The translations under genes were made by a program, and so were the position numbers. From Thermoanaerobaculia bacterium (GTDB lineage: Bacteria > Acidobacteriota > Thermoanaerobaculia > Multivoradales > JAHZIX01), in assembly GCA_027069135.1 (NCBI GenBank), contig JALXFE010000590.1:1-35634 (forward strand): a stretch of DNA of 35,634 nt, given 5' to 3'. Positions 23,817 through 29,811 of the stretch are shown here, in pieces. The first letter of the stretch is position 1; each line of letters begins with the position of its first letter. A model generated the notes under the pieces. The model was not told where the DNA came from and searched no databases. It saw nothing but the letters and a program-made list of their open reading frames with translations.

Positions 23817-23893
23817 TGGCGGGGCCGACGGGACTCGAACCCGCGACCTCCGGCGTGACAGGCCGGCATTCTAACCAGCTGAACTACGACCCC
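23817..23893 (-). tRNA. tRNA-Asp (GTC)
   Basis: A 77-nt cloverleaf: acceptor GGGGTCG pairs with CGGCCCC, the anticodon loop reads CTGTCAC (anticodon GTC), the T loop is TTCGAGT, discriminator G, and CCA is encoded. It lies 34 bp downstream of tRNA-Val, in transcription order, and 30 bp upstream of rpmG. Confidence 0.97.
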
Positions 23894-23927
23894 GCTTGCT
23901 TCGTTTCTGCGACCGTTCTTACCAGAA

Positions 23928-24002
23928 TGGTGGGAGGTGTGGGACTTGAACCCGCGACCCCCTGCGTGTAAAACAGGTGCTCTACCACTGAGCTAACCTC
24001 CC
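23928..24002 (-). tRNA. tRNA-Val (TAC)
   Basis: A 75-nt cloverleaf: acceptor GGGAGGT pairs with ACCTCCC, the anticodon loop reads TTTACAC (anticodon TAC), discriminator A, and CCA is encoded. First of the tRNA-Val, tRNA-Asp, rpmG cluster. Confidence 0.97.
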
Positions 24003-24198: not shown

Positions 24199-24804
24199 AT
24201 GCATACGCTGCCCGACCTGCCCTATGCCTTCAACGCCCTCGAACCGCATATAGACGCCAAGACGATGGAAATCCACCACGGCAAGCACCACAACGCCTAC
24301 GTGACGAACCTCAATAACGCCCTCGAAGGCCACGCGGGCTTGGTGAGGAAGAGTCTCGAGGACCTCCTGGGGGATCTGAACAGCGTCCCGGAGAGCATCC
24401 GCGGCGCGGTCCGAAACAACGGTGGCGGCCACGCCAACCACAGCTTGTTCTGGCCGACCATGAGCCCCGACGGAGGCGGAGCCCCGAGCGGCGACCTCGC
24501 CGCCGCCATCGAGCGGGACCTCGGCGGCTTCGACGCCTTTAAGAAGGCTTTCGCCACTGCCGCCGGAACCCGTTTCGGTTCTGGCTGGGCGTGGCTCAGC
24601 GTCGCCGACGGCCACCTCGAAGTCTCCTCCACACCTAACCAGGACAGCCCGTTGATGGAAGGAAAGACCCCCATCCTGGGCCTGGATGTCTGGGAGCACG
24701 CCTATTACCTGCACTACCAGAATCGGCGTCCGGACTACGTCAAGGCTTGGTGGAATGTCGTCGACTGGGATGTCGTGGCCTCCCGCTTCGCAGCCCAGGC
24801 GTAG
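24199..24804 (+). CDS. sodA: Superoxide dismutase, manganese type
   Basis: A 201-residue Fe/Mn superoxide dismutase. The four metal ligands are visible in [15 protein letters not shown] and [23 protein letters not shown] and NQDSPL (Gly and Gln arrangement) are typical of manganese enzymes, while [17 protein letters not shown] is the family C-terminal signature; metal choice is inferred. No signal peptide, so cytoplasmic. The ATG at 24199 has GGAGG at 24181-24185, a 13-bp spacing that is on the long side. An in-frame upstream start at 24154 has no RBS. Confidence 0.96.
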
Positions 24805-25219: not shown

Positions 25220-25534
25220 ATGCAGATCGCAACGGCTTTACCAGGCCGCAAACGCCAGCTGACCAAAGTCTTCAAAGCTCTGTCCGACGGAACGCGCCAG
25301 GAAATCCTGCGCCTCCTCGAGGGCAGCCAGCGCACGGTGGGAGAGATTGTGGGTAACTTCAGCCTCTCCCAGCCGACGATTTCTCGGCATCTTGCGGTAC
25401 TCAAGGAAGCGGACCTGGTGGTAGACCAGCGTCAAGGACAGAACGTCATATACCGCCTGAACGACGAGACTCTCTCCGCCTCGATGCGCGGTTTCTTCGG
25501 TCAATTCCGAAGCTGCCAGCACTCTCTTCGCTGA
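25220..25534 (+). CDS. ArsR-family transcriptional regulator
   Basis: A 104-residue winged helix-turn-helix protein: TKVFKALSDGTRQEILRLLEG, then TVGEIVGNFSLSQPTISRHLAVLKEADLV and QGQNVIYRLNDE. The recognition helix is SQPTISRHLAVLKEAD. The CxC metal site usual in helix alpha3 of arsenic/zinc sensors is missing (only one Cys, near the C-terminus), so it is probably not a classic metal sensor and more like SdpR-type autorepressors. The ATG at 25220 has a strong AAGGAGG 8 bp upstream; longer upstream frames do not. No target operon is adjacent. Confidence 0.9.
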   Translation: MQIATALPGRKRQLTKVFKALSDGTRQEILRLLEGSQRTVGEIVGNFSLSQPTISRHLAVLKEADLVVDQRQGQNVIYRLNDETLSASMRGFFGQFRSCQHSLR

Positions 25535-25744: not shown

Positions 25745-25821
25745 GGCGGTGTAGCTCAGCTGGTTAGAGCGAGCGACTCATAATCGCTAGGTCATGGGTT
25801 CAAGTCCCTTCACCGCCACCA
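25745..25821 (+). tRNA. tRNA with CAT anticodon (elongator Met most likely; Ile2 not excluded)
   Basis: A 77-nt cloverleaf: acceptor GGCGGTG pairs with CACCGCC, the anticodon loop reads CTCATAA (anticodon CAT), discriminator A, and CCA is encoded. A CAU anticodon belongs either to elongator tRNA-Met or to tRNA-Ile2, in which C34 is modified to lysidine by TilS. The acceptor GGCGGTG and G4/G5 favour elongator Met, while the anticodon arm AGCGA-CTCATAA-TCGCT looks like E. coli Ile2. tilS starts 56 bp downstream. Initiator Met is excluded because the first acceptor pair is formed. Confidence 0.85.
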
Positions 25822-25877: not shown

Positions 25878-27284
25878 GTGTCTGTTCTCAGGGCTGCCCT
25901 CACCGAATTCTTCTCCACCTCCGCTCCCGTAGGAGCCGGCCAGCTCGTATTGGTGGCGTTTTCCGGCGGCCCGGACTCGACAGCCCTCCTGGCCGGCCTG
26001 CGAGAGCTTTCCGAGATTCACAAATTTCAGGTCCAGGCGGCTCATGTCGATCACGGCCTGGATCCCGACTCGGCTCGAAGGGCGTCGGCGGCCCAGGCTC
26101 TTTGTGACTCCCTGGGCGTCCCGTTCCATCTCCTCAACCCGACGGACCGACCGGCCCCCGAAGAAAGTCTCGAAGCTGCCGCGCGCCGCATTCGCTACAG
26201 CGCCCTCGAGACCCTTCGCATCACTCTCGGAGCCCGCTATATCGTCACGGCCCATCACCGGGACGATCAGGCGGAGACGGTGCTTCTCCGCATGAAGTTC
26301 GGCAGCGGTCTCCAGGGCCTCGAAGCGATTCGTGCCCGTTACGGCCGGGTTCTGCGTCCGCTTCTTACCGTGCCCCGGAAGGATCTTCTCGAAGCTGCCC
26401 GAATTCAAAATCTCTCCTTTTCTTCGGATCCGACCAACCGGGATTTGAGGCGACCGCGCAATCTCCTCCGCCATCACGTCCTCCCGAATCTGGAAGGGAC
26501 GGTCCCCAACCTTCGCCAACGGCTCACGGCCCTTGCTTCGAGCAGCGGCCGGGCTCGCCGCGTCTGGAACCGGAGGCTCTTCCATCATTTGAGCCCTCGG
26601 CCGGTGGTGGGAGGATGGGGAGTGCCCCTCACCACGCTCCGAGGCTTGCCGTCTGAAGTTCGATCCATAGCCCTCGCTCTGCTCCACCACCTGGCCGGCA
26701 ATTCCTACCCCCCGACCCGTGCGGCCCTTCGAGAATTGTCTCGACAGTTGGAGAGAGATGGTAGAATCGGGGTCGACTGTGGGGCTCATCTGCGCTGGGA
26801 GCGGCGGGGAAAGCTCCTCGTCGTGGCGCCCTGTGCAACCCCAACACCCTTTTTCTCATATACTTTGCAGGTACCGGGGGAGGTACGGATCGATGAGCTC
26901 GGGTTGAGCTTCCGCCTCTCGCTGGTTTCGGAGGTAGGTTTGCCCGACTCTTTGAGAAGTGCGGGCAGGAAAAGGCCCCCTTCGGGGCCCCTCGAAGTCG
27001 TCCAACGGGCGCTCTTCAACCAGGCACTCACCGCTGGCGATGTAGTGACTGTGCGTAATCGTCGGCCCGGCGATACGGTGCGGCCTCCCGGGGCACGGAC
27101 TCTTCGTCCCTTGAAGGATTTGTTCACCGACCGCCCGGTGCCGCTCCGGTCGAGAGACCGGCAGGTTTTGGTATGCGTGCGGGGTGTCATTGTCTGGATC
27201 CCCGGTTTCGGCGTGGACGACCGTTTCCGACCCCACCCTTCGGGGAAACTTTGGCTAGCGGAGATTTCTGCTGATGAGCAGTGA
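25878..27284 (+). CDS. tilS: tRNA(Ile)-lysidine synthetase
   Basis: TilS converts C34 of tRNA-Ile2 (CAU) to lysidine so that it reads AUA. The 468-residue protein has the N-type ATP pyrophosphatase P-loop LVAFSGGPDSTALL, HVDHGLDPDS, TAHHRDDQAETVLLR and RPLLTVPRKDLL in order. The C-terminal substrate-binding part contains VRNRRPGDTVRPPGA and LKDLFTDRPVPLRSRDRQVLV. It is slightly longer than E. coli TilS (432). The frame runs into the tRNA, so a start after it is needed; GTG at 25878 is preferred over GTG at 25827, but no strong RBS is seen. The stop overlaps the hpt start by 11 bp, and the CAU tRNA precedes it. Confidence 0.93.
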   Translation: MSVLRAALTEFFSTSAPVGAGQLVLVAFSGGPDSTALLAGLRELSEIHKFQVQAAHVDHGLDPDSARRASAAQALCDSLGVPFHLLNPTDRPAPEESLEAAARRIRYSALETLRITLGARYIVTAHHRDDQAETVLLRMKFGSGLQGLEAIRARYGRVLRPLLTVPRKDLLEAARIQNLSFSSDPTNRDLRRPRNLLRHHVLPNLEGTVPNLRQRLTALASSSGRARRVWNRRLFHHLSPRPVVGGWGVPLTTLRGLPSEVRSIALALLHHLAGNSYPPTRAALRELSRQLERDGRIGVDCGAHLRWERRGKLLVVAPCATPTPFFSYTLQVPGEVRIDELGLSFRLSLVSEVGLPDSLRSAGRKRPPSGPLEVVQRALFNQALTAGDVVTVRNRRPGDTVRPPGARTLRPLKDLFTDRPVPLRSRDRQVLVCVRGVIVWIPGFGVDDRFRPHPSGKLWLAEISADEQ

Positions 27285-27810
27285 AACAACGATCTTGTAC
27301 GACACCGAGGAAGTACAGGCCGCGGTTCGTCGCCTCGGCTCTGAGCTCGACGAAAACCTGGGGGAGGAGCCCCTATTGATCTCCCTCCTCAACGAGTCCG
27401 TCCTGTTCATCGCCGATCTGGTTCGGTCTATCGAGCGCCCCATTCGCTACGAATTCATCCAGGTCGGCTACTCCGCCGATGACACCGACGGCGAGATCCT
27501 CAACATCGAGTACCCGATGCCTATCGATTTGAACGGAGCGGATGTGATCCTGGTCCGCGATCTCGCCACAACCGGCGTCATCGAGAGCTATCTGGTTCCA
27601 CAATTTCTCCAACATGGAGCCCGACGAGTCCGGGTCGCGGCGCTGTTGGACGTTCCGGATCGCCGCACCACTGATTTCGAGACGGACTTTCGCGCCCTGA
27701 CCGCACCGGCGGACACAGGCACGCTGGTCGGCTACGGCATGAAACACGAAGGCCGCCACGGCAACAAAGGCCATATTTCTCAGCTACCCTCAACGACGCC
27801 CGGAGCATAA
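27274..27810 (+). CDS. HPRT-fold protein with degenerate active site
   Basis: A 178-residue homologue of hypoxanthine phosphoribosyltransferase by length, position and pattern (ISLLNESVLFIADLVRSI, VILVRDLATTGVIESYLVP, LLDVPDRR, GYG). Key residues are altered. The PRPP loop VEDxxDTG is VRDLATTG, so the first acid is Arg and the general-base Asp is Thr. The purine-contacting Lys of LLDKP is Val, and the GYGxD Asp is replaced (GYGMKH). The usual RG of the RGS loop is NE. Catalysis as HPRT is unlikely. It starts inside tilS and precedes ftsH, the order seen in B. subtilis, where HprT and TilS are reported to affect ftsH expression. A structural or regulatory role is my inference. Confidence 0.8.
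   Translation: MSSETTILYDTEEVQAAVRRLGSELDENLGEEPLLISLLNESVLFIADLVRSIERPIRYEFIQVGYSADDTDGEILNIEYPMPIDLNGADVILVRDLATTGVIESYLVPQFLQHGARRVRVAALLDVPDRRTTDFETDFRALTAPADTGTLVGYGMKHEGRHGNKGHISQLPSTTPGA

Positions 27811-27831: not shown

Positions 27832-29811
<1,980 letters not shown>

Follow-up and report, generated by a model that had tools for sequence, protein, structure and literature searches.

A class-wide HPRT-like gene between tilS and ftsH in Thermoanaerobaculia is predicted to encode a pseudoenzyme

Results

Gene organization of the tilS-ftsH locus

The window analyzed here is the whole stretch of 35,634 nucleotides from a bacterium of the class Thermoanaerobaculia (Acidobacteriota). On its forward strand an ORF of 178 codons with an ATG start (positions 27274–27810) encodes a protein with a predicted HPRT fold, probably a pseudoenzyme. 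This ORF overlaps by exactly 11 bp the end (27284) of tilS, the gene for tRNA(Ile)-lysidine synthase (25878–27284, forward strand; PF01171 and PF11734; TIGR02432 at 162 bits, over the cut-off). As listed, the tilS ORF opens at 25794, within a tRNA gene; the earliest in-frame start beyond the tRNA is GTG 25878, which we take as the probable tilS start. On the other side, ftsH, which encodes an ATP-dependent zinc metalloprotease (27832–29811, forward strand; TIGR01241 at 862.7 bits; PF01434 and PF00004), begins with a TTG codon at 27832, 21 bp past the stop of the HPRT-like ORF, and is followed by folP, cdaA, ybbR and glmM. An earlier note, made from the letters of this DNA, had proposed the order tilS-hpt-ftsH with an 11-bp tilS overlap, and the ORF coordinates agree with it.

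A tRNA gene with anticodon CAT lies directly upstream of tilS (25745–25821, forward strand; ARAGORN; Rfam RF00005 at 71.6 bits). Its anticodon arm resembles that of tRNA-Ile2, the substrate of TilS, a likeness that does not separate Ile2 from elongator tRNA-Met identity. The window's genome holds one other non-initiator CAT candidate, on a different contig (C302). Near tilS, a CAT tRNA is found in 23 of the 26 order and class loci scanned, on the opposite strand in one locus (L090). Further upstream, a tRNA-Asp/tRNA-Val pair (23817–24002, reverse strand) is syntenic in five loci (L133, L134, L137, L139 and L140). Between this pair and tilS we recognized by eye the genes of an Fe/Mn superoxide dismutase and of an ArsR-type HTH regulator (24199–24804 and 25222–25534, forward strand).

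Fold and family membership

The window protein matches PF00156 at 37.9 bits (gathering threshold 26.3) and TIGR01203 at 76.6 bits (76.2 in the genome search; E 1.8e-21). The latter score, about 76 bits, is below the curated TIGR01203 cut-off of 150 bits, while the canonical copy of the same genome scores 209.2, above it. The AF2 model, built from 11 sequences, has a pLDDT of 82.3 and a pTM of 0.77. With this model the best solved matches of Foldseek are bacterial HGPRTs (TM about 0.8), and the best 50 solved entries of VIA-align are all HPRT-type (Z 18.7–21.2; rmsd of 2.3 over 169 residues for the top match). The two profiles, the model and the structure matches all agree with an HPRT fold, as had been claimed, and judged from sequence and model the HPRT-family match is not a chance one.

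Active-site residues

Residues were mapped by alignment to solved HGPRTs (2geb/1r3u and 4rht) and to L001, the canonical HPRT of the window's genome. The functional roles of the positions corresponding to E133, D137, K165, D193 and R199 (human numbering) are ones that we take to be established. The window protein has the motifs IADLVRSI (46–53), VRDLATTG (94–101), LLDVPDRR (124–131) and VGYGMK (152–157). In loop I the triplet N40-E41-S42 (27391–27399), which is GGS in most of the order, stands in place of the canonical K-G-(A/S), so that N40 replaces the loop I Lys. The Ser-Tyr of the flexible loop II is absent together with the whole SSYG motif. In loop III, the PRPP loop (27553–27576), the first acid of the pair E/D-D is R95 and the catalytic Asp is T99. 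The base-binding Lys is V127 (27652–27654), and in the stretch VGYGMKHEGRHG (152–163; 27727–27762) the metal-contacting Asp is K157 and the PPi-contacting Arg is G163. The second PRPP acid (D96), the TG turn, R131 and VGYG are retained. All these codons lie on the forward strand.

The alignment bears out the motifs and the lost catalytic residues quoted in the earlier note. Its list of losses was right but short, since the loop I Lys, loop II and the PPi Arg are gone too. From these residues the window protein is very probably a pseudoenzyme, and we infer that it makes neither IMP nor GMP.

HPRT of Bacillus also binds (p)ppGpp. Glu99, Asp100, Lys131 and Arg165 of B. anthracis Hpt-1 contact both the substrates and ppGpp, and the same residues are cited for B. 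anthracis/B. subtilis HPRT (PMC6783271). Changing residues with side-chain contacts greatly weakened pppGpp binding by Bacillus HPRT, in which loop II also belongs to the dimer-dimer interface (PMC6783271). The equivalents of Glu99, Lys131 and Arg165 in the window protein are R95, V127 and G163, and loop II, with its part of the tetramer interface, is lost. A role as (p)ppGpp sensor appears unlikely because these contact residues are missing.

Conservation of the locus and of the substitutions

A search of 59 relatives with the window protein as query gave 21 further orthologues with 38–56% identity and, set apart from them, canonical copies at 25–32%. tilS precedes all 22 orthologues of the order (the window's included), and ftsH also follows 21 of them, the last locus (L022) ending at a contig edge. 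The approximately 38 distinct loci from the rest of the class that were fetched and read are likewise all tilS>HPRT>ftsH. Where matches at this locus carry a name, they are Acidobacteriota, and several are titled Thermoanaerobaculia. The literature searched yielded no report of inactive HPRT paralogues in bacteria or of a tilS-ftsH HPRT locus in Acidobacteria.

We compared 61 class sequences (23 from the window's order and 38 others) with 27 canonical HPRTs. Where 27/27 canonical HPRTs have Glu as the first PRPP acid, 61/61 class sequences have Lys or Arg. The catalytic Asp and the metal Asp are each kept in 1/61 and the PPi Arg in 0/61, versus 27/27 canonical HPRTs for each of the three; the Ser-Tyr of SSYG, present in 27/27 canonical HPRTs, is lost in the class clade. 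The third residue past the TG turn, E104 in the window protein (27583–27585, forward strand), is Glu in all 61 class sequences and Leu in 26 of the 27 canonical HPRTs. The association of K/R with this Glu, although perfect, counts as one event in these sequences because it is confined to one clade.

Other positions differ between the window's order and the rest of the class. The loop I Lys is present in 36/38 class members outside the order versus 0/23 within it. At the base-binding position the members outside the order have Arg (22/38) or Lys (13/38), and those within it have Leu, Val, Ile or Met (23/23) and never Lys (0/23). Within the order the position of the metal Asp is Lys in 22/23 and that of the PPi Arg is Gly in 23/23. 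By this distribution, the HPRT active site at the tilS-ftsH locus decayed stepwise. Of the window copy and its relative from the same genus, the former is the more derived (NES for SGS, NKG for NLP). The summed charge at eight catalytic positions goes from about 0 in canonical HPRTs to about +2.

Matching losses are thus common to 22/22 order orthologues and to some 38 more class loci, as a check proposed in the earlier note had asked, and a recent or sequencing-derived change is ruled out by substitutions shared class-wide.

Intact hpt genes elsewhere in the genomes

In the window's genome (7.17 Mb, 97.5% complete) PF00156 matches at nine places. One of them, on contig C137, is the intact hpt whose presence the earlier note had suggested looking for: this copy, L001, has LKGS, SSYG, EDIVDTG, LLDK, VGYGLD and YRNLPF. 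Another, on contig C123, looks by eye, from the listed ORFs, like PyrR beside pyrB.

The assemblies compared are mostly MAGs. In a profile search of 149 class genomes, a second HPRT-type gene was found in most genomes outside the gene-less families, and a working-type hpt is separate from the tilS-ftsH copy in most class genomes. Residues lost, an enzyme encoded elsewhere and purifying selection (see below) are thus found together, as in a pseudoenzyme paralogue, with the exception of four class genomes that have no second copy. These four (G129, G132, G092 and G145, at least 90% complete) gave no match to a canonical hpt, and the one copy that they show is of the degenerate type, at tilS-ftsH. 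Their single-copy state may mean that salvage is absent, that contigs are missing or that the class-type protein retains some activity. Such activity, if any, may be found in the class members that retain more of the site.

Ancestry, selection and loss

A tree of 97 sequences (182 columns, short search), in which several inner branches are weak, separates the canonical hpt clade (SH-aLRT 99) from the class tilS-ftsH copies (100), with the clade of the window's order inside the latter (100). The earlier note held that relatives with an intact loop at this locus would indicate a recent or sequencing-derived change. Such relatives are present, since tilS-ftsH copies of other acidobacterial lineages (L127, L129, L153 and L154) have an intact-looking PRPP loop, but that origin does not follow, because the tree puts the change at the base of the class. 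From its topology the active-site change is placed as ancient. Two genomes of other acidobacterial lineages (G223 and G233) have no hpt besides the tilS-ftsH copy, which looks active in both (172 and 162 bits on TIGR01203, above the cut-off). Thus, as far as these sequences tell, the tilS-ftsH locus once held the enzyme.

Two further tilS-ftsH copies (L147 and L148) have VGGILDTG or IGDVLDTG and have lost the loop I Lys. Two HPRT-like copies without a tilS match nearby (L144 and L145) carry, like L147 and L148, one or the other of these PRPP loops together with LLEDS or ILENA in loop I. These four sequences apparently represent a separate loss of PRPP-binding acids. The L144 copy lies beside transport genes and may have moved.

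Between near orthologue pairs of the HPRT-like gene dN/dS is 0.08–0.33 (Nei-Gojobori), which indicates that the protein is under purifying selection and makes a pseudogene by neutral decay unlikely. The gene has nevertheless been lost repeatedly. In 18 genomes of the same order that have no HPRT gene, tilS lies directly before ftsH, and no HPRT remnant was detected between the two at E 0.1. On an FtsH tree the pattern of presence and absence requires about 6 changes, at least 3 of them on well-supported branches. The HPRT-like gene is dispensable, and any role that it has is non-essential, because it was repeatedly lost without disturbing tilS-ftsH.

Discussion

With somewhat better than even confidence, we favor the following reading: an HPRT paralogue in the tilS-ftsH operon was inactivated in ancient times, and purifying selection has maintained it there because its product serves TilS as a partner without catalysis. 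The parts of this reading are not equally firm. That the copy probably persists for a purpose unrelated to purine salvage is drawn from the rebuilt active site held class-wide and from the working copy elsewhere in most genomes, and the pattern fits a non-enzymatic role that outlived catalysis. That the partner is TilS is an evenly balanced proposition, made by analogy with B. subtilis. The protein would be made by translational coupling at the overlapping tilS and HPRT genes and would act as a non-catalytic partner of TilS, as B. subtilis HprT complexes with TilS; most likely it would stabilize or modulate TilS. The tilS-ftsH operon's output could be affected in this way or through the transcript that the genes share. 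The loss of loop II, a dimer-dimer interface in Bacillus HPRT, may free a surface, and together with the gene overlap it favors the TilS partnership. A search of the loci found no natural TilS-HPRT fusion. The single candidate (L137) is an artefact of a broken frame.

In the old pocket three acids are gone and basic residues have appeared, with D96, the [ST]-[GA] turn, R131 and VGYG still in place. Since the elements on the 5'-phosphate side are kept and the pocket is basic, binding of a phosphate, a nucleotide product or a nucleic-acid backbone in place of Mg-PRPP is plausible and even probable. These same features could also belong to an enzyme with another reaction, either type I PRT-like or nucleotide-hydrolysing, in a rebuilt pocket with K/R for Glu and the invariant Glu opening the next helix. 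The replaced residues are indeed conserved (K/R and E104 in 61/61 sequences, K157 in 22/23 and G163 in 23/23 within the order), some class genomes have only the tilS-ftsH copy, and adenine-type PRTs work without the HPRT catalytic Asp. However, in the window's order nothing remains of the PPi/Mg half of the site (loop I Lys, loop II Ser-Tyr, metal Asp and PPi Arg), and no characterized type I PRT known to us carries Lys or Arg where the PRPP motif has its first acid. We consider such an enzyme rather improbable. Still less probable is a decaying relic carried along by translational coupling in the operon with no function of its own. The repeated gene losses and the derived state of the window copy would suit a relic, but the low dN/dS, the open frames in nearly all orthologues, the preserved fold and the fixation of new residues throughout a class argue against it.

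The earlier note had pointed to an influence on ftsH expression. B. subtilis is the only species from which the TilS-HprT complex is known as an activator of ftsH (Lin et al. 2014, cited in PMC8152036). Were it to operate here, a TilS-HPRT complex would bind DNA upstream of ftsH and activate it, regulation having outlived catalysis. The gene order and the overlap match those of B. subtilis, where the complex activates ftsH (PMC8152036), and the gain of about two positive charges at the catalytic positions could suit nucleic acid. Nevertheless tilS-ftsH is kept in several lineages without the HPRT gene. The gap before ftsH measures 21 bp, and a scan for sigma-70 type promoters, which acidobacterial promoters may not fit, gave 0 promoter-like sites near ftsH versus 0.5 expected; no clear inverted-repeat pair was seen before ftsH either. 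For these last reasons the TilS partnership is more likely here than a direct action on an ftsH promoter, and we regard direct control of ftsH transcription by the window protein as unlikely.

Returning to the non-catalytic partner of TilS, a more specific form can be put forward tentatively, as a possibility that falls short of even: the class-wide HPRT branch may have changed from an enzyme to a subunit that lacks catalysis and is dedicated to the lysidine-tRNA/FtsH operon, and a K/R-Glu pair may form within the molecule at the old PRPP site. If true, the regulatory function of TilS-HprT and purine salvage would have been separated naturally in this branch. The tilS-hpt-ftsH order recurs in distant bacteria without clear reason, and in B. 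subtilis the enzyme and regulator roles are hard to tell apart because the same protein does both. In this class the enzyme role appears to have moved to another gene, and the operon copy, without an active site, is still at the locus, so that a non-enzymatic role becomes directly testable; natural presence/absence pairs inside one order serve as controls. An automatic annotation as hypoxanthine phosphoribosyltransferase would probably be wrong for the class tilS-ftsH clade.

Comparison with known systems

The bacterial HPRT/HGPRTs (TIGR01203; B. anthracis Hpt-1, 3h83/6d9q; T. tengcongensis, 1r3u/2geb) resemble the window protein in fold and length, and also in the second acid of the PRPP loop, the [ST]G turn, the VGYG strand and the base-loop Arg. 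They differ from it at the first acid, the catalytic Asp, the loop I Lys, SSYG, the base Lys, the metal Asp and the PPi Arg, all replaced in the window protein. Inactive or repurposed PRT-fold paralogues are already known. PyrR and PurR are type I PRT-fold regulators with a role other than purine salvage; as is predicted for the window protein, they keep the PRT fold for a non-salvage role. In contrast to the class clade, they keep the acidic pair of the PRPP motif; the clade carries K/R-D and arose separately, within HPRT.

The TilS-HprT system of B. subtilis shares with the window the tilS-hpt-ftsH order and overlapping tilS and hpt genes (PMC8152036). HprT is a working enzyme there, whereas here the operon copy is degraded, the enzyme is separate and no ftsH promoter is evident. 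Finally, APRT1 of T. brucei is reported to be a kinetically inactive isoform beside an active one (PMC8836349). In that respect it resembles the present case, an inactive paralogue (inactivity being predicted here) alongside an active one. It differs in that the class clade is K/R-D and of separate origin, within HPRT.
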